Source: Acidobacteriota bacterium (GTDB taxonomy: Bacteria > Acidobacteriota > Blastocatellia > Pyrinomonadales > Pyrinomonadaceae). From it: 34,415 nucleotides of DNA. Positions within the stretch are counted from its first letter, which is position 1, and every line of letters begins with the position of its first letter. The translations under genes were made by a program, and so were the position numbers. Of this stretch, positions 5,080 to 17,793 are shown one piece after another. The notes beneath the pieces were generated by a model, which worked only from the letters and a program-made list of their open reading frames with translations, ran no database searches and was not told the origin of the DNA. The DNA is taken from NCBI GenBank assembly GCA_003222895.1, contig QHXI01000088.1:1-34415 (forward strand), written 5' to 3'.

Positions 5080-5997
5080 ATGCCACGACGTATTTCCCGC
5101 CATTCATTTGGAGTTAAGAATCGTTCGCCATGGCGACGCATGCTGGGCGACGCAGTTCATCATTTTCACGAAAACGATTTGTTCGCGTCGGCTGCGGCGA
5201 TGAGTTATTTCGGCTTGATGACTCTGTTCCCTGCTCTACTGCTGCTACTGGCATTAAGCAACAAGATCGCCGCCGGCAATCAAATGATCTCGCACGTCGT
5301 GCAGGTGTATCCCGGCTCGACGCAATTCCTTCGCGACACGATTCGATCGCTTTCGGCGATCAGCCCCGGCGTTATGATCACCTGCGCCATCGTAGTCTTG
5401 TGGGCCGGCTCGTGGGTCTTCGCCATCGTCGAGCGCGCTCTGAACAGAATTTGGGGGACGACACATCGCACCTTTGTTCATGGCCGGTTGCTGACGCTGG
5501 GCATGATCGGATTTATCGGATTGTTGCTGTCGGCCTCGGTATTGCTCACGTCGATCCTCGTTTATATGCAGGAAATCGCCGGCCGCCTGTCGCCACATCA
5601 ACTCGAACATTATCCACTGCTATTGTCCGTCGGTAGTTTGGTCTGGCAGGTCGTCTTCGCGCTGGTCAGTCTATTAGTAACGTTCGCGTTGTTCTCGATC
5701 GTTTATCGATTCATGCCAAACGCGTACGTGACGTTGCGCGACACGGTTCCCGGGGCGTTGATCGGCAGCCTCCTTTGGGAAGCCGCGAAATACATCTTCG
5801 CGTGGAGCCTGAATTATTTTAACTACGAACAGATTTATGGCTCGGTCGGCGCCGTCGTCGCGGTGCTTACGTGGGGCTACGTCTCAAGCCTGGTCCTGCT
5901 ATTCGGCGCGCAGCTGACCGGCGTTTTTCATCGCGAGCACATGGAGCATCCCGTCCCTGCGCCTGGAATTAACGTCCCCTCCGCATCCTATTCGTAA
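5080..5997 (+). CDS. yihY: YihY/BrkB-family inner membrane protein
   Basis: A 305-residue integral membrane protein of the YihY/virulence factor BrkB family (PF03631). It has a short basic N-terminus and about six transmembrane segments, among them MSYFGLMTLFPALLLLLAL, VMITCAIVVLWAGSWVFAI, LTLGMIGFIGLLLSASVLL and VVAVLTWGYVSSLVLLFGA. Family marks are HFHENDLFASAAAMSYFGL, the RALNRIWGT segment and the YRFMPNAYVTLRDTVPGALIGSLLWEAAKY stretch near the C-terminal third. The family was once called RNase BN; that activity was shown to belong to another protein, and its true function is not settled. It lies between ruvB and queA on the same strand with gaps of 88 and 37 bases. Confidence 0.93.
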   Translation: MPRRISRHSFGVKNRSPWRRMLGDAVHHFHENDLFASAAAMSYFGLMTLFPALLLLLALSNKIAAGNQMISHVVQVYPGSTQFLRDTIRSLSAISPGVMITCAIVVLWAGSWVFAIVERALNRIWGTTHRTFVHGRLLTLGMIGFIGLLLSASVLLTSILVYMQEIAGRLSPHQLEHYPLLLSVGSLVWQVVFALVSLLVTFALFSIVYRFMPNAYVTLRDTVPGALIGSLLWEAAKYIFAWSLNYFNYEQIYGSVGAVVAVLTWGYVSSLVLLFGAQLTGVFHREHMEHPVPAPGINVPSASYS

Positions 5998-6034: not shown

Positions 6035-7072
6035 ATGCGCATCTCCGACTTCGATTACGAGCTTCCGCAAGAGTTGATCGCTCAGCAACCGCTGAATGAG
6101 CGTGACGCTTCGCGCATGCTGCTGGTGGATCGGGCAGCGCAAACGTGGCGCGATTCTGAATTCATATCGCTGCCTGATCTGTTGACGGCAGGAGACGTTT
6201 TAGTAATTAACAACACGCGGGTGTTTTCGGCTCGATTGCATGGCCAGCGAAAATCGTCCGGGGGCACGGTGGAGCTATTGCTGCTGCGCGGAGTAGGAGG
6301 CAACGTTTGGGAAGCGTTGACGCGACCGGCTCGACGTCTGCAGACCGGGGCGCAGATCGATTTCGCAGGTGCGGCGATGTCCGCCGAGGTAATTGAGGAA
6401 TTGCCGAATGGCGCTCGCTTGATCAAATTCGAAGCAAACGAACCACTTGAAAACGTGTTCGATAGAATCGGCGAGACTCCGCTTCCGCCTTATATCAGGC
6501 GCGAGGCAGCAGAGTCAGAGAATGACCGCGATCGATATCAAACAATCTATGCGAAGGATCGCGGCGCTATTGCCGCGCCAACGGCAGGCCTACACTTCAC
6601 TCCGGCCGTGCTCGAACGAATCAGAGCACGCGGAATTCAAGTCGTCGAAGTAACTCTGCACGTCGGTTACGGAACTTTTGAACCTGTCCGGGTCGATGAC
6701 ATCGCTGAACACAGAGTCGCCGCCGAATGGTTTTCAATTGACGAAAGTGCGGCGCAAGAAATCAATGCCGCCCGCTGCCGTAGTTCCCATGTAATTGCCG
6801 TGGGGACGACAACGACGCGCGCGTTGGAATCGGCGGCCACATCAAACCGCGAAGTAAAAGCCGGCTCGGGTTTTGCAAATCTTACGATCGTGCCCGGATA
6901 TCAATTCAAAGTCGTCGACAGACTGTTAACCAATTTCCATCTGCCGCGGTCTTCACTGCTGATGCTTGTTTCTGCTTTCGCGGGTCGCGATTTCATGCTG
7001 GCCACGTACCGGCACGCAGTGAACGAACGTTATCGCTTTTACAGCTATGGCGATTGCATGTTGATAATGTGA
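6035..7072 (+). CDS. queA: S-adenosylmethionine:tRNA ribosyltransferase-isomerase QueA
   Basis: A 345-residue QueA that converts 7-aminomethyl-7-deazaguanine in the wobble position of tRNA to epoxyqueuosine, using SAM as ribosyl donor. Signature segments are the start MRISDFDYELPQELIAQQPL, VLVINNTRVFSARL, PLPPYIRR, the tyrosine-alanine region QTIYAKDRGAIAAPTAGLHFT, VTLHVGYGTFEPVR, and FHLPRSSLLMLVSAFAG near the C-terminus. Length is normal. Other queuosine genes are not in the window, so substrate supply comes from elsewhere. ruvAB-queA linkage occurs in many bacteria, which agrees with this order. Confidence 0.97.
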   Translation: MRISDFDYELPQELIAQQPLNERDASRMLLVDRAAQTWRDSEFISLPDLLTAGDVLVINNTRVFSARLHGQRKSSGGTVELLLLRGVGGNVWEALTRPARRLQTGAQIDFAGAAMSAEVIEELPNGARLIKFEANEPLENVFDRIGETPLPPYIRREAAESENDRDRYQTIYAKDRGAIAAPTAGLHFTPAVLERIRARGIQVVEVTLHVGYGTFEPVRVDDIAEHRVAAEWFSIDESAAQEINAARCRSSHVIAVGTTTTRALESAATSNREVKAGSGFANLTIVPGYQFKVVDRLLTNFHLPRSSLLMLVSAFAGRDFMLATYRHAVNERYRFYSYGDCMLIM

Positions 7073-8737: not shown

Positions 8738-9052
8738 GTCTGAGCGAACCGAAAAGGAGGGCAGGCAACTGAACCTGACAAGCTCGTGGCCAACGATGTT
8801 TTGCGCTGTGGGCCAGCTCCGACGCGTCAAAAGCCGTCGTCAAAGCTCACGAGTCACATTAACACGGCAATTTCGAAGGCTTCAAGTGTTTTTCGATCGG
8901 TGGAAATACCTGGCACGGTTAAACCAATTCTGGTCCAGGGACTGCAAACCCTACTCTTCCGTTGATTTAGCCCTCCAGCTATGCTACCCTCTGGCGTCGT
9001 TTTTGAGCCAATTTCGCATTAAATATACCCCTTAGAGGCGAGGCCTGTTACC
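8738..9052. other. Divergent intergenic region, 315 bp
   Basis: No gene is supported here. It separates the minus-strand GTPase from the plus-strand histone-like gene. A TATGCT at 8980-8985 could be a -10 box for the plus-strand gene, though no convincing -35 lies at proper distance. AGGCGAGG at 9037-9044 is a fitting ribosome-binding site for the ATG at 9053. Confidence 0.6.
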
Positions 9053-12517: not shown

Positions 12518-14380
12518 ATGTGTGGAATAGTTGGATACGTTGGAAACAAACAAGTCGTGCCGTTGATTATCGACGGACTGCGCAAGCTCGAATATCGCGG
12601 CTATGACTCGGCCGGGATTGCGGTTGTTGATGAAAATCATCACCTCGAGATTGAACGAGCTGAAGGCAAGCTGCGCAATCTTGAAGAGGCTTTGCGCAAG
12701 CATCCTCTCGATGGCACTTATGGCGTGGGACACACGCGCTGGGCCACGCATGGCCGGCCTACCGAAGAAAACGCGCACCCGCACCGCGACTGCACCGGTC
12801 GCGTCGTCGTCGTGCACAACGGCATCATCGAAAACTATTTGCAGCTAAAAGATGAACTGCGAAAAAAAGATCATGAGTTCGTCACTGAAACCGATACCGA
12901 GATCATCGCTCACCTGATCGAAGAACACCTCAAGCACGGAAACAGTTTCGAACAAGCAGTGCGCGCAACCGTGAATGAGCTGCGCGGCATCTTCGCGCTC
13001 TCGATGCTTTCGGCGGACGAACCTGACACGATCATCTCCGCGCGGCTTGGACCGCCGGTCGTGATCGGAATCGGCGACGGCGAATTTTTTGTCGCTTCCG
13101 ACGTGCCCGCAATCCTCGAACACACACGCGATGTCTTCTTTCTGGGCGACGGCGAAATCGCGGTGATGACGAAGGAAGGCGTCCGCGTTACTGACTTTAC
13201 CGGCAATCCCGTCATGCCGCATCGGCAACGCATCACCTGGGATCCGATTCAAGCGGAAAAGGGCGGCTTCAAGCATTTCATGCTCAAAGAGATTTACGAG
13301 CAGCCGCGCGCGGTCCGCGAAACCGTCGAAGGGCGCATCTCGCTCGATACGGGCCGAGTATTTTTGGATGAGATGCGAAACCTCAGCGAAAAAAATTTCA
13401 AGCGTTTCGATTCGATCAAGATCGCCGCCTGCGGAACGTCCTGGCACGCGGGCATCGCCGGCAAGTACATGATCGAACAACTCGCGCGCGTGAACGTCGA
13501 AGTCGATTATGCCTCTGAGTTTCGCTATCGCGATCCAGTGCTCGACAAAAACACTCTGCTGCTCGTGATTTCACAGTCGGGCGAAACAGCCGACACGATC
13601 GCGGCGCTGCGCGAAGCGAGTGAGAGAGACAGCAGCGTGCTGGCAATCTGTAACGTTCAGGGATCGATGATTACCCGCGAAGCCGACGGCACAATTCTCA
13701 CCCACGCGGGCCCGGAAATCGGCGTCGCGTCGACGAAGGCTTTCACCGCACAGATGATTGCGCTTTATCTCTTCGGTCTGTATTTGGGTCAAATTCGCGG
13801 GACGTTGAGCGAAGAAGAGAGCCGCGCGCACGCGCAACAACTCGCGGAACTTCCGGTGAAGATGGAACATCTGCTGAACGAGGCAAATTTGATCGAGGAA
13901 CTCTCGAAAGAATTTTTCCGTGTGAACGATTTTCTTTACCTCGGACGCGGAATCAATTTTCCGATCGCTCTGGAAGGCGCACTGAAGCTGAAAGAGCTTT
14001 CGTACATTCACGCCGAAGGTTATCCCGCCGGTGAAATGAAGCACGGTCCGAACGCCTTGATCGACGAGCGTCTGCCCGTAATGTTCATCAACACTCGTGA
14101 AGAAGGAAATCGGGCTTCTGAGTTGCGCTACGAAAAAACTCACTCGAACATCGTGGAGGTCAAAGCGCGTGAGGGGATCGTTCTTTCAGTATTGACCGAA
14201 GGCGATTCGATGTCTTCCAGGATGTCTGATCACATCATCACAGTTCCCGCGTCCAGCGATTTGCTGTCGCCTTTGCTCTCGATCATTCCGCTGCAACTGC
14301 TCGCCTATCACATCGCCGTGCGACGTGGTTGCGACGTCGATCAGCCCAGGAATCTGGCGAAGTCGGTGACGGTGGAATAG
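12518..14380 (+). CDS. glmS: Glutamine--fructose-6-phosphate aminotransferase (isomerizing)
   Basis: A 620-residue GlmS. The N-terminal Ntn glutaminase begins [10 protein letters not shown], so Cys2 becomes the catalytic N-terminal nucleophile; further glutaminase motifs are [29 protein letters not shown] and [10 protein letters not shown]. Two SIS domains carry [21 protein letters not shown] and [13 protein letters not shown], and the end KSVTVE is the family terminus. It makes glucosamine-6-phosphate, feeding GlmU. The gap to glmU is only 57 bases, too short for a glmS ribozyme, and a heptad tract abuts the start codon with no ribosome-binding site. It converges on the TIR gene, 17 bases apart. 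Confidence 0.98.
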
Positions 14381-14397
14381 ATCTCTGATTTGCGTCC

Positions 14398-16485
14398 TCA
14401 ACGACGCGTCAACTTAAGGAATATTAAGTTGTCTGTGAAAAGCTGGTAGGTGGCCCTTCTTTCCACTTTGTATTCGTGAAAGGCGGACAGGAGTGCCGCC
14501 TCACCGCGAAGGCGGGTGTGTTCGCTGACTTGCTGCCCGACATCAACATGTTCAAATAGAAAGAGGGTTCTTGCGGATTTTTTCATAACCTCAGCTACGG
14601 CGTGAAAGTCTTCCTCTTCGACGTTGTGAATAAGCATAAGTGACGAAATTGCAACGTCATATAATCTGTCGGGAATGTAATTCTGCACGAACGTTTGCAC
14701 ATATTGCACTCTTTGCGCGAAGGATCCTAACCGATTTCGGTTCCGCTCGAGCATTCTGCTACTGAGATCTATACAAGTCATCCTTCTGGCTTTGCGAACC
14801 AGGATTTCGGACATTCTCCCGATTCCCGCTCCGATTTCCAGGACGTCTTCGCCGTCAATGTCGCTCCCGATGAAGTCAAAGACCGCCTCTATGTACTTCT
14901 TCGATTCCTCGTGACGTCGACCGCCTGGATAACGAGCACTCATGACCGCGAGATCTCCAGGTCGGAACGCTCGATAGTCCCACTCGGCGGTCATCTCGTC
15001 GGTTAGTCGCTTATGAACAAACACAGGGTCAATGGCTCGTTCCACGGCTCGATAGCCGAATCTCTTGGCGCAGAGTGTCAACAAGCCTGCCGCCGCCGCT
15101 GGCTCCCACGGATTTGTTTTCAACATGTCTACGACGGACTCAAGGTCGAATGGGATCGCTACGATTTCTTGCATCTCGATGAAGTAATCACGAGCCATAA
15201 TGGCCTTTCCGATCACGTCTTCTGATGACAGGCCAGTCCTCTCAAAAAAACTGAATTGGTAGTAGAACTTCTGAGCGTCAACGCCAAATCCAAACAAATA
15301 CATGTTGTCCAACTTAATGTTGTGACCTATCTCTTCACGGCATTCTCGGGCCATTTCAGTAAATGGATGTACATTGTCACACCAGTCCATCGTCCCGCTA
15401 GCCGAGTAGGTCCATGTGTTGCTGTAGACGTTTACGCTGTGTGAGTGCCTCGAAACAACGATCTTATCGTCGCGCGTGATCAGAAAGATCCCGACCCCGC
15501 ATATGTTTGTTAGTTTGGAATGACTCACGTCATTCAGATCAAGCCGAGGGGCGTATTTATCTCTGAAGGTACGGTTCGGATCATCCGGCAGCGGAGAATC
15601 CAGATACTCGCCGGACAACAGATAGTCAAGATACTCAATTTTCGAAAAAGTAAACGTAAGGCGACAGAGGCCCGCGCGTAAGATTGTGAAGTCGTACTGA
15701 CTTAATCTGCATTTGAAATCTGTAAAGTAGTAAGCAGGTGGCGGATTTTTCTTAAAATCTTCCGGTAAGACATAAGTGGAAACGTTGTCCGTAAGGCTAA
15801 TCACCTCACCCATTCCAAACTCATTTGAGTCGGCCTTCCATGCGGCAATCAAGACCACGTAAGGAAATCGCCACGACGATATCTGAAAAAGGTTCGAGTA
15901 GCGGTGGGCCATTGCTTGCGCGGAAACAGAAGAAACAGACTTCACAGGCTCGAACGAAGGGATGGGCTGGTTCGGATGTTTCGACGCTTCCGCCTCTGCT
16001 GCAATCGTCGGGAGGCGGGCTCTCATCAATGTCTCCGATATTCGTCTGATTCCGCGTGCAATATCTTCAAACGCTGCGTCCGGATTTGACCAAAGGGTCA
16101 CAGGGTTGGCCTCAGTCGGTAACGCCTGAAGTTTTCCAAAAGGCGCGGACTTCCAATCGCAGGGCCGACATAGGATAGGAATAATCCGCGCGTCGCCGCT
16201 TGCGTGCCGGTCCATTGCGCGAGTCATCTCAACGTCATAACAATAGTCAGAGGCGAGGAAATCGGCGCTCACTAACAGAAGCACAATATCCGCGTTGTCA
16301 AGTTGTCCGTCTATTTCCCCAGCCCACTCATGTCCAGGTTCAATTCTGCGATCACTCCAACCCGAGATGACGCCTTGCCGCCGCAGAACGCTGAGATGTT
16401 TCTCTAACTCAACGCGAAGCTCTTCATCCTGATGAGAGTAGCTATAGAACAGCCGAAGCGGAGAACGTGATGATGTGTGACTCAT
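14398..16485 (-). CDS. TIR - unknown domain - Nudix-like - methyltransferase multidomain protein
   Basis: A 695-residue protein with four regions. Residues 10-150 are a bacterial TIR domain: LFYSYSHQDEEL, WSDRRIEPGHEW, LLLVSADFLASDYCYDVEM with putative NADase Glu86. Residues about 195-320 match nothing I know. Residues about 325-450 form a Nudix-like domain with box residues G364, R380-E381, E384-E385 and G387; the first conserved Glu of the box is replaced. Residues about 525-695 are a class I SAM methyltransferase (VLEIGAGIGR 548-557, acidic residue D573). TIR domains cleave NAD or make signal nucleotides; Nudix domains cleave or bind ADP-ribose-type molecules. It is an orphan between glmS and phyH, appears less GC-rich than its neighbours, and may be acquired. 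A defence role is inference. Confidence 0.85.
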   Translation of the reverse strand: MSHTSSRSPLRLFYSYSHQDEELRVELEKHLSVLRRQGVISGWSDRRIEPGHEWAGEIDGQLDNADIVLLLVSADFLASDYCYDVEMTRAMDRHASGDARIIPILCRPCDWKSAPFGKLQALPTEANPVTLWSNPDAAFEDIARGIRRISETLMRARLPTIAAEAEASKHPNQPIPSFEPVKSVSSVSAQAMAHRYSNLFQISSWRFPYVVLIAAWKADSNEFGMGEVISLTDNVSTYVLPEDFKKNPPPAYYFTDFKCRLSQYDFTILRAGLCRLTFTFSKIEYLDYLLSGEYLDSPLPDDPNRTFRDKYAPRLDLNDVSHSKLTNICGVGIFLITRDDKIVVSRHSHSVNVYSNTWTYSASGTMDWCDNVHPFTEMARECREEIGHNIKLDNMYLFGFGVDAQKFYYQFSFFERTGLSSEDVIGKAIMARDYFIEMQEIVAIPFDLESVVDMLKTNPWEPAAAAGLLTLCAKRFGYRAVERAIDPVFVHKRLTDEMTAEWDYRAFRPGDLAVMSARYPGGRRHEESKKYIEAVFDFIGSDIDGEDVLEIGAGIGRMSEILVRKARRMTCIDLSSRMLERNRNRLGSFAQRVQYVQTFVQNYIPDRLYDVAISSLMLIHNVEEEDFHAVAEVMKKSARTLFLFEHVDVGQQVSEHTRLRGEAALLSAFHEYKVERRATYQLFTDNLIFLKLTRR

Positions 16486-16723
16486 TTCTTGCGCGACAGA
16501 AAAAACTGGCAGAGCAGCGCTGAACCAAAGAAAATTAGCATGTCATCCGGTTCGGAGTGCCCCAGCCGTCATGTGTTAACGTGATTATGTGTCTCAAACG
16601 TGGTGCCAGGTCAACCCTTTGGCAATATCTTACACCTCGCGGATTGGTGATCGCTCTCAACGGACAGCCCATTTCAGGACGACTCGGCAGCGACACAGTT
16701 TGAGATGGGCAAAATGACAGGAC

Positions 16724-17560
16724 TCAAAACCCTCTCAGCGGCATCTCCGCCGACCGCTGCAACCAGTTACTAGCCGGATATTCGCAGGAAGGATCAATGA
16801 TATGCAGCGTGTAAGCATGTCTTGATTGTGAGGACTTGTTTTCGCGACTGAGATGCGGGAGTAATGGATGCAGCACGATCAGACTTCCCTTCTTGACTTC
16901 CAGCGGCTGGAGATTTTCTTCAGCCCAGGGCGAATCGTCGAATGTTTCGAAGCGAGTTCCGCCCGCGTCCGCGCGCACGAAACGCGACTTCAACCCGAGC
17001 TTATGTCCGCCGGGAATCGCCCATAGGCATCCATTCTCGATCGTCGCGTCTTCAAGCGCGAACCACAGCCCAACCATTCGCAACGGCTCGGTGTAAATAA
17101 ACGTCGCGTCCTGATGACAAGTTACTTCCCCGCCAATGCGCGGCTGTTTGAAGATGTACATCGACTGAAGCAACAACGGATCTTCGATTCCGAGTTCGCG
17201 CACTAACTGTTCAATCTCTTTCGTTCGCGAAAACCGATCGAACACCGGATCGAGATCATGAAGCGCATGGCCGATCTTGTTGATCGACTGCTCTTTGCTT
17301 TGCCGCAGCATCCTATTGGAATTGAAAGCGTTTTCTTCGAAGAAAAAACGAATCTTGTCGCCGGATTCGAGAAAGTAATCGTCGCTGGTGCGCGTCTGTT
17401 CATGTGTCGAGAAAATCGAAATCAAGGACGGATTGAATTCGCGCACGAGTTCTTCAGCGCGCGCGCGTAAATCATCGCAGGCCGTGGGCGAAACAAAGTT
17501 CTCGATCACGAGGAAGCCATCGCGTTTATAGGCGGCAATTTGTTGGAGACCAAGAGTCAT
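16724..17560 (-). CDS. Phytanoyl-CoA dioxygenase (PhyH) family protein
   Basis: A 278-residue Fe(II)/2-oxoglutarate dioxygenase of the PhyH family (PF05721). It begins with the family-typical QQIAAYKRDGFLVIENFVSP. The iron triad is visible as H and D of CHQDATFIY and the distal His in LHPLLPHLSREN, with Arg in SQSRHAYTLH for 2-oxoglutarate. A GLWFALEDATIENGCLWAIPGGHK segment lies between them, as in phytanoyl-CoA and small-molecule hydroxylases. The substrate is unknown. ATG 17560 is chosen by family fit; ATG 17572 is close, and the frame stays open into the repeat element upstream, which is not coding. A 238-bp gap without a clear gene separates it from the TIR gene. Confidence 0.88.
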   Translation of the reverse strand: MTLGLQQIAAYKRDGFLVIENFVSPTACDDLRARAEELVREFNPSLISIFSTHEQTRTSDDYFLESGDKIRFFFEENAFNSNRMLRQSKEQSINKIGHALHDLDPVFDRFSRTKEIEQLVRELGIEDPLLLQSMYIFKQPRIGGEVTCHQDATFIYTEPLRMVGLWFALEDATIENGCLWAIPGGHKLGLKSRFVRADAGGTRFETFDDSPWAEENLQPLEVKKGSLIVLHPLLPHLSRENKSSQSRHAYTLHIIDPSCEYPASNWLQRSAEMPLRGF

Positions 17561-17635
17561 GCGAGGCAACATTTTCAGTTCTGGCGAAGGATTAATCAAG
17601 ACGACAGCAAAGCGGTTTGTCAAAACGGATTTTTG

Positions 17636-17793
17636 GCGGCTCTGCCGTCTGATGTGCGGAAAGGCTACGCCTTTCCGCGAGCCTTTTTTGATTATTATTA
17701 GGCTACGCCTCATTTGCGAGGCGGAGCCTGATAACAAAAAATGATCCATGCCGGAAAGCCGCAGGCTTTCCGCACATCAGACGGCAGAGCCGC
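17636..17793. repeat. 158-bp nested-hairpin element with perfect 28-bp inverted ends
   Basis: Terminal arms 17636-17663 and 17766-17793 are exact reverse complements over 28 bases. Inside are three further hairpins: 17656-17678 (10-bp stem, loop TAC), about 17696-17733 (TTATTAGGCT... paired with AGCCTGATAA plus an inner GCCTC/GAGGC), and 17753-17771 (8-bp stem, loop GCA). No open frame of its own and no obvious target-site duplication are seen. It fits a non-autonomous MITE-like or REP-derived element between phyH and the transporter. Confidence 0.85.

Follow-up and report, generated by a model that had tools for sequence, protein, structure and literature searches.

Bacterial immune effectors of the TIR type form a large class, and it is the fusion partner of the TIR that makes them diverse. 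The described systems closest to the protein analyzed here are Thoeris ThsB and the stand-alone or fused bacterial TIR effectors, along with TIR fusions to Roc-COR-LRR, STAND/NACHT, or FGE-sulfatase parts, in which the other half is a recognition or switch module. For the middle of the protein, the closest described enzymes are NUDT22 (PDB 5LOR and 5LF9) and bacterial NUDT22-like proteins, which are single-domain metabolic enzymes; an excerpt of PMC10101856 describes the conversion of UDP-glucose to glucose-1-phosphate and UMP by NUDT22, and an excerpt of PMC5688067 reports that NUDT22 showed no clear substrate when human Nudix proteins were screened against 52 substrates. TRPM2, an ion channel that carries a Nudix domain (NUDT9-H), is a parallel in working only, as a case in which an effector bears a Nudix domain, and no kinship to it is claimed; excerpts of two papers describe NUDT9-H as a binding domain in man (PMC5671594) and invertebrate TRPM2 as an active ADPRase in which catalysis is uncoupled from gating (PMC6461439).

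The gene that we compared with these systems occupies positions 14398..16485 on the minus strand (stop codon included) of the window, by which we mean the whole 34,415-nucleotide stretch of DNA that was analyzed. It is a single intact frame with an ATG start and no internal stops, and the encoded protein of 695 residues is predicted to consist of a TIR domain (residues 8-157), then a divergent, likely NUDT22-like Nudix domain (about 239-449), and then a class I SAM methyltransferase (about 527-645). An earlier note, made from the letters of the sequence, had read the same three parts in the same order on one chain, and the profile searches agree with it. The TIR is of the same broad type as ThsB and the other bacterial TIR effectors and retains the putative catalytic glutamate, but a ThsA-like partner was not found by PADLOC among 10 neighboring proteins, and to our knowledge the C-terminal half resembles no known Thoeris protein. 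Whereas the related TIR fusions carry a recognition or switch module, this protein carries a Nudix-methyltransferase pair. With NUDT22 and its bacterial kin it appears to have in common, by the profile of its relatives, the layout of an N-terminal subdomain followed by a Nudix core, but unlike those enzymes it is fused and very divergent; from TRPM2 it differs in both the effector and the Nudix branch. All of the parts are of known kinds, and the arrangement looks new. The claim that no described system has this domain order fits our survey of the open-licence PubMed Central literature, where no TIR-Nudix, TIR-Nudix-methyltransferase, or TIR-methyltransferase fusion was found; in the excerpt of PMC9503650 the term "TIR-Nudix" occurs 0 times.

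The TIR domain and its relatives

The TIR domain (residues 8-157; 16015..16464, minus strand) was matched by Pfam TIR_2 at residues 13-132 (E 5.2e-15; 56.5 bits, the cut-off being 28) and by the PADLOC ThsB model PDLC00420 over residues 12-177 (5.6e-59), a model that would also fit many fused TIRs of similar type. The AlphaFold2 model of this region was confident: of the 15 ten-residue blocks that make up residues 11 to 160, 13 have a pLDDT of at least 91. A PDB comparison with VIA-align, which covered residues 8-154 only, gave a best Z of 15.9 with 139 residues aligned and an rmsd of 2.7. Among the matches listed, 50 of 50 PDB rows were TIR domains or TIR-containing proteins, and the best chains included the TIRs of plant NLRs, SPARTA, AbTir, SARM1, and Cat1. 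The modeled structure is, with high confidence, that of a TIR fold, as had been proposed.

The motif ASDYCYDVE has its last residue at position 86, the residue that the earlier note had singled out as the putative catalytic glutamate (codon 16228..16230, minus strand). This glutamate was invariant in all 34 rows of the alignment of the query with its TIR relatives (A8) and conserved at 90% or more in a 26-row alignment (A6). We take a glutamate in the SxYC/WxxxxE region to be the catalytic residue of TIR NADases, and the retained residue is consistent with a TIR that would hydrolyze NAD.

A scan of genomes with the TIR domain returned 30 loci out of 61 pattern matches, with 34-62% identity in the TIR part. 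The set of 34 proteins searched against Pfam comprised the query, one plasmid protein, 29 of the 30 scan loci, and L002, L011, and L012 from the same class; L003-L010 and the truncated L090 were left out of this set, which covered 33 of the 42 relative loci. TIR_2 was present in 34 of 34 proteins. Among the matches listed, which represent 25 of 46 families, the 33 relatives carried Roc and COR (seven proteins), FGE-sulfatase (three), iSTAND (three), NACHT (two), nSTAND1 (one), and trypsin-like (one) domains, and LRRs occurred in 6 proteins of the 34-protein set. About half of the 33 relatives had a sensor or regulator module, and the other half had none among the families listed. On the basis of the match coordinates, the TIR lay at the C-terminal end, opposite to its place in the query, in at least 7 of the 33 relative frames, and these are probably the Roc-COR ones. 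Matches to the 695-residue protein were also obtained in 44 plasmid records; the 20 listed all fell inside the TIR part, and none covered 80% of the protein. The viral scans (L035, L037, the pair alignment, the DNA motif, and P0001) yielded a single TIR fragment, L113. In the query's own genome, 14 TIR_2 matches were above the cut-off. Among them are neighbors on C88 and on C70 and, on C67, two pieces that adjoin each other, so that the genome can be described as TIR-rich.

The divergent Nudix domain and the methyltransferase

The middle domain was divided into a Nudix N-terminal subdomain (residues about 239-325; 15511..15771, minus strand), delimited by alignment with six relatives and by profile matches that start at residue 252 or 258, and a Nudix core (residues about 326-449; 15139..15510, minus strand), where the profile matches end at residue 449 or 448. 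The Pfam NUDIX match to the core (residues 330-400) was weak and under the cut-off (E of 0.043 for the whole protein and 0.0039 for a 160-residue piece), so the call is not readable from Pfam alone. The canonical Nudix box is G-x5-E-x7-REUxEExGU; in the query the first Glu of the box is missing and the G-to-R spacing is non-canonical. The RExxEExG half is represented by RECREEIG at residues 380-387 (15325..15348, minus strand). Glu381 and Glu385 of this stretch, as well as Glu437, were invariant in all seven rows of the alignment of the query with its six relatives (A4; positions converted), to which the query is 21-25% identical. According to the excerpt of PMC5688067, NUDT22 is likewise without a conventional Nudix box.

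The relatives were recruited by iterated searches with the query. L035 was a lone weak match (E 0.0016) in 1 of 399 genomes of another class of the same phylum; a profile of the query and L035 then returned L037 (2 of 396 genomes, the query's own counted), and the three-row profile returned L041, L042, L043, and L044 (5 of 399 genomes, that of L035 counted). The Pfam NUDIX cut-off was passed by L042 (barely, at 21.6 versus 21.1 bits), L043, and L044, and Pfam gave zero matches for L041, L035, and L037. Because of this mode of recruitment, the 60.7-bit score of the query is partly circular. A query-free profile of seven relatives (L042, L043, L044, and four plasmid proteins, three of the seven having been recruited with query-containing profiles) scored the query at 35.3 bits (E 3.7e-10), and the best of 1000 shuffled versions of that part of the query reached 3.4 bits. 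With the profile of L042, L043, and L044, the query scored 27.6 bits (best of 1000 shuffles, 6.0), and with that of the four plasmid proteins, which were found via L043 only, it scored 10.0 bits (best of 500 shuffles, 4.7). A five-member profile made of the four plasmid proteins and L043, without L042, gave the query 14.3 bits (best of 500 shuffles, 8.8); run against the frames of the collected loci, it scored the query at 14.2 bits and ranked generic Nudix frames such as L057, L051, and L061 (about 23 bits) above it, and with the four-member plasmid profile the query was not in the list of frames. The hhalign comparison of the query with the six relatives gave 97.8%, and the profile match spanned residues 252-449, which correspond to the core and part of the N-terminal subdomain. 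At the level of sequence, these profiles firmly assign the middle domain to the Nudix superfamily.

Within the class, the seven-row profile matched 16 of 162 genomes at E ≤0.01, the query's own counted. Of the 17 matches other than the query, 16 begin at profile position 108 or later, and we read these as generic Nudix proteins. The AlphaFold2 prediction of the full chain, made with the TIR rows only, had a mean pLDDT of 52.7 and gave no usable model for the middle domain or the methyltransferase; the middle domain alone, as a single sequence, had a pLDDT of 35.1. One relative, the 412-residue Nudix-module protein at L035:1276-2511, has a hydrophobic N-terminal stretch (by eye), and genes for a DDE transposase and a hybrid histidine kinase lie next to it; here too the module may be fused, or it may be membrane-bound. 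In the relative at L042:505-2280, a NUDT22-like Nudix half follows an unrelated N-terminal half in one continuous frame of 591 residues.

Searching the PDB with the seven-row profile, in which the query is included, returned NUDT22 as the best match (1.5e-16 for 5LOR and 1.8e-16 for 5LF9), followed by other Nudix enzymes from 5.6e-7 downward. This match leans on L043 and L044. L043 alone reached NUDT22 at 3.1e-14, L041 alone returned nothing from the PDB, L035 alone reached it at just 0.65, and the pair of the query and L035 gave a weak match (E 0.029). Placement of the query in the NUDT22 branch is at best likely, and is a weaker call than that of the Nudix superfamily.

The C-terminal part (residues 496-695; 14401..15000, minus strand) is, from its profile matches, a class I SAM methyltransferase. 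Pfam Methyltransf_25 matched residues 548-635 above its cut-off (2.2e-11), Methyltransf_11 and Methyltransf_12 were above theirs too, and the Rossmann-type SAM motif I is present as EIGAGIGR at residues 550-557.

The insertion site behind glmS

The gene stands by itself among housekeeping genes, as noted before. On the basis of their Pfam domains, from which the neighbor names are deduced, GlmU-like and GlmS-like genes lie on one side and a PhyH-family oxygenase gene and an MFS transporter gene on the other. The left border of the site is glmS (12518..14380, plus strand; SIS and GATase domains) and the right border is the PhyH-family oxygenase gene (16724..17749, minus strand; Pfam PhyH, 1.6e-52); the inserted segment extends from the glmS stop to the stop of the PhyH gene (14381..16723). 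The GC content is 0.501 for the gene and 0.502 for the insert versus 0.547 for the window outside the insert, so that the foreign composition claimed by the earlier note holds in its direction, but the difference is mild.

We found glmS in 6 of the 7 genomes of the genus, the query's own counted, and the five sister orthologues are 86-95% identical. Of the five sister genomes in which glmS was found, two have an empty site and three a filled one. Where the site is empty, in G006 (L093) and G005 (L096), glmS and the convergent PhyH gene meet stop codon to stop codon, with 0 bases between them. The gap of 3.7 kb in G002 (L094) contains a 1163-residue frame with WD40 repeats and a Peptidase_C14 (caspase) domain (L094:5475-8966); the 2-kb gap in G001 (L095) contains a small frame that matches HicB-type antitoxins just under the cut-off and a 375-residue frame with no Pfam match; and the gap in G003 (L097) is about 0.35 kb. 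The end of glmS is an insertion spot, and the TIR gene is its cargo in the window, which bears out the cargo-like character that had been suspected for it. Tn7 inserts behind glmS in other bacteria. In L095, a second copy around the glmS 3' end (5236-5421 and 6045-6230; 89% over 186 nt) looks like the trace of a site-specific or duplicating insertion. In L094, 23 nt of the PhyH 3' end recur as a near-copy (91%; 5400-5422 and 8924-8946) near the glmS end of the insert, perhaps a trace of the insertion route. The insert in the window had four imperfect inverted repeats, to which we attach no meaning, and neither a further ORF of at least 80 residues nor a direct repeat of at least 14 nt was listed for it. 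The glmS-PhyH gap is a cargo spot that deserves mining across the genus.

The 10 neighboring proteins had zero PADLOC matches at 0.001, and PHROG gave nothing for the 695-residue protein except methyltransferase, weak Nudix, and unnamed matches. Three other identities were considered and dropped: a toxin-antitoxin system and a Thoeris pair, as a partner gene is absent from the insert and PADLOC is silent on the 10 neighbors, and a phage gene, in view of the PHROG result.

Searches for a second copy

The earlier note had suggested looking for the same domain order near defence genes in other genomes; no second TIR-Nudix-methyltransferase copy was found in class, phylum, plasmid, viral, and phage searches of limited reach, the sequence searches being of the exact-8-mer or single-sequence type, which distant relatives escape. 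The C-terminal 516 residues had zero close relatives in viral contigs and no relatives among 87 pattern matches in genome contigs, and the 15 plasmid records that they returned matched the methyltransferase part only. With the middle domain alone, 1 of 162 genomes of the class was found, which was the query's own, and zero relatives were found in viral contigs or phages. Seven plasmid records at E values of 3 to 7 were taken as chance, and the 33 of 396 phylum genomes returned at E up to 1 consisted of the query's own and apparent chance matches. Plasmid searches with L035, L037, and L042 gave nothing, that with L043 gave six records, and that with L041 gave one. When the Nudix profile and the methyltransferase query were run against the 4306 frames of the collected loci, the only TIR frame matched was the query's own; some of these loci are short or cut, and fused parts past their ends would escape. 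Since these searches returned no second copy, conservation gives no argument for cooperation of the three parts.

Possible roles of the three-part protein

The explanation that we prefer, and to which we assign an even chance, is that the gene was acquired horizontally and by itself encodes a TIR effector, probably directed against phages, in which sensing or regulation falls to the Nudix-methyltransferase half. Those relatives that have a second module have one of a recognizing or switching kind, so that the TIR would be the effector and the remainder would decide when it fires; by this analogy the Nudix-methyltransferase half is read as the input side that would control the TIR. Once triggered, the N-terminal TIR would deplete NAD or produce an NAD-derived signal. 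The input may be a change in a nucleotide, in a nucleotide-sugar (UDP-sugar), in methylation, or in a SAM-related state during infection, and the half that senses it would parallel the Roc-COR-LRR, STAND/NACHT, or FGE-sulfatase modules of the related TIR proteins. We infer the regulatory role of the C-terminal half, phage as the trigger, and the role in defence. The TIR fold, the kept Glu86, the module-fused TIR kin, the cargo site, the lower GC content, and the TIR-rich genome all speak for an effector of this kind; against it stand the silence of PADLOC on the neighbors, the single copy, the half of the relatives without a listed module, and the C-terminal position of the TIR in at least 7 of the 33 relatives. 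A pure sensor would, in addition, have no need of the active-site residues that the Nudix and methyltransferase parts both keep, and these parts may alternatively be functional enzymes with the TIR product or a target as their substrate.

One alternative, which we regard as doubtful, is that the NUDT22-like domain has UDP-glucose or UDP-GlcNAc as its target; infection-driven shifts in cell-wall precursors would then gate the TIR, or NAD and UDP-sugars would both be drained. The kinship of the family profile to NUDT22 points this way, as does the position of L041 between galE-like and glycosyltransferase-like ORFs (names by eye), but the direct match of the query and L035 to NUDT22 was the weak one given above, the profile without L042 and the closer relatives scored the query below several generic Nudix frames, and a sequence reveals no substrate. 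The products of glmU and glmS make UDP-GlcNAc; this neighborhood nevertheless carries little weight, because the neighbors are native and the insert is foreign.

The earlier note had instead proposed a self-limiting NAD device, in which the TIR would make an ADP-ribose-type product, the Nudix domain would hydrolyze or bind it, and the methyltransferase would cap the product or a target; we consider this unlikely. The retained RExxEExG half of the box and the three glutamates invariant in 7 of 7 rows are consistent with such a device, an excerpt of PMC9503650 describes Nudix domains that process ADP-ribose in conflict systems, and invertebrate TRPM2, as described in the excerpt of PMC6461439, is a precedent for a working Nudix domain on an effector. 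The relatives' best solved match, however, is to NUDT22, a UDP-glucose hydrolase and not a known ADP-ribose hydrolase, the canonical box is without its first Glu, and one copy is known. Because NUDT22 is a UDP-glucose enzyme, the handling of ADP-ribose is not what the kinship suggests, although the divergence is large and Nudix substrates change easily, so that an ADP-ribose role could still be accommodated. With the ADP-ribose link unsupported, the self-limiting device is a minority reading.

It is improbable, in our estimate, that the chain is a signal factory in which the TIR would make an ADP-ribosyl or base-exchanged product (the acceptor possibly being a UDP-sugar or another nucleotide), the Nudix domain would trim the diphosphate, and the methyltransferase would cap what is left; if true, the methylated nucleotide that is released would be an immune messenger of a new class, which a single gene both makes and tunes. 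We give equally little credence to a chance fusion or ordinary enzyme, that is, a metabolic Nudix-methyltransferase that gained a TIR and has no role in defence: the architecture had no second copy in the searches and the standalone NUDT22-like relatives are surrounded by ordinary genes, but the 695-codon frame is intact, active-site residues are kept in all three parts, and the gene occupies an insertion site and is not part of an operon.

Under the preferred reading of a TIR effector with a sensing or regulating half, NAD, nucleotide-sugar, and methyl metabolism would come together in one immune protein through the attachment of a methyltransferase and a catalytic-looking, NUDT22-like Nudix domain to a TIR, and the TIR-Nudix-methyltransferase arrangement would let the roles of such enzymes as sensors or as tailors of the product be tested. 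A minor observation concerns the standalone NUDT22-like gene at L043:582-2157, which overlaps a same-strand frame resembling a UbiE-type methyltransferase (by eye); this overlap is a possible second Nudix-methyltransferase link.
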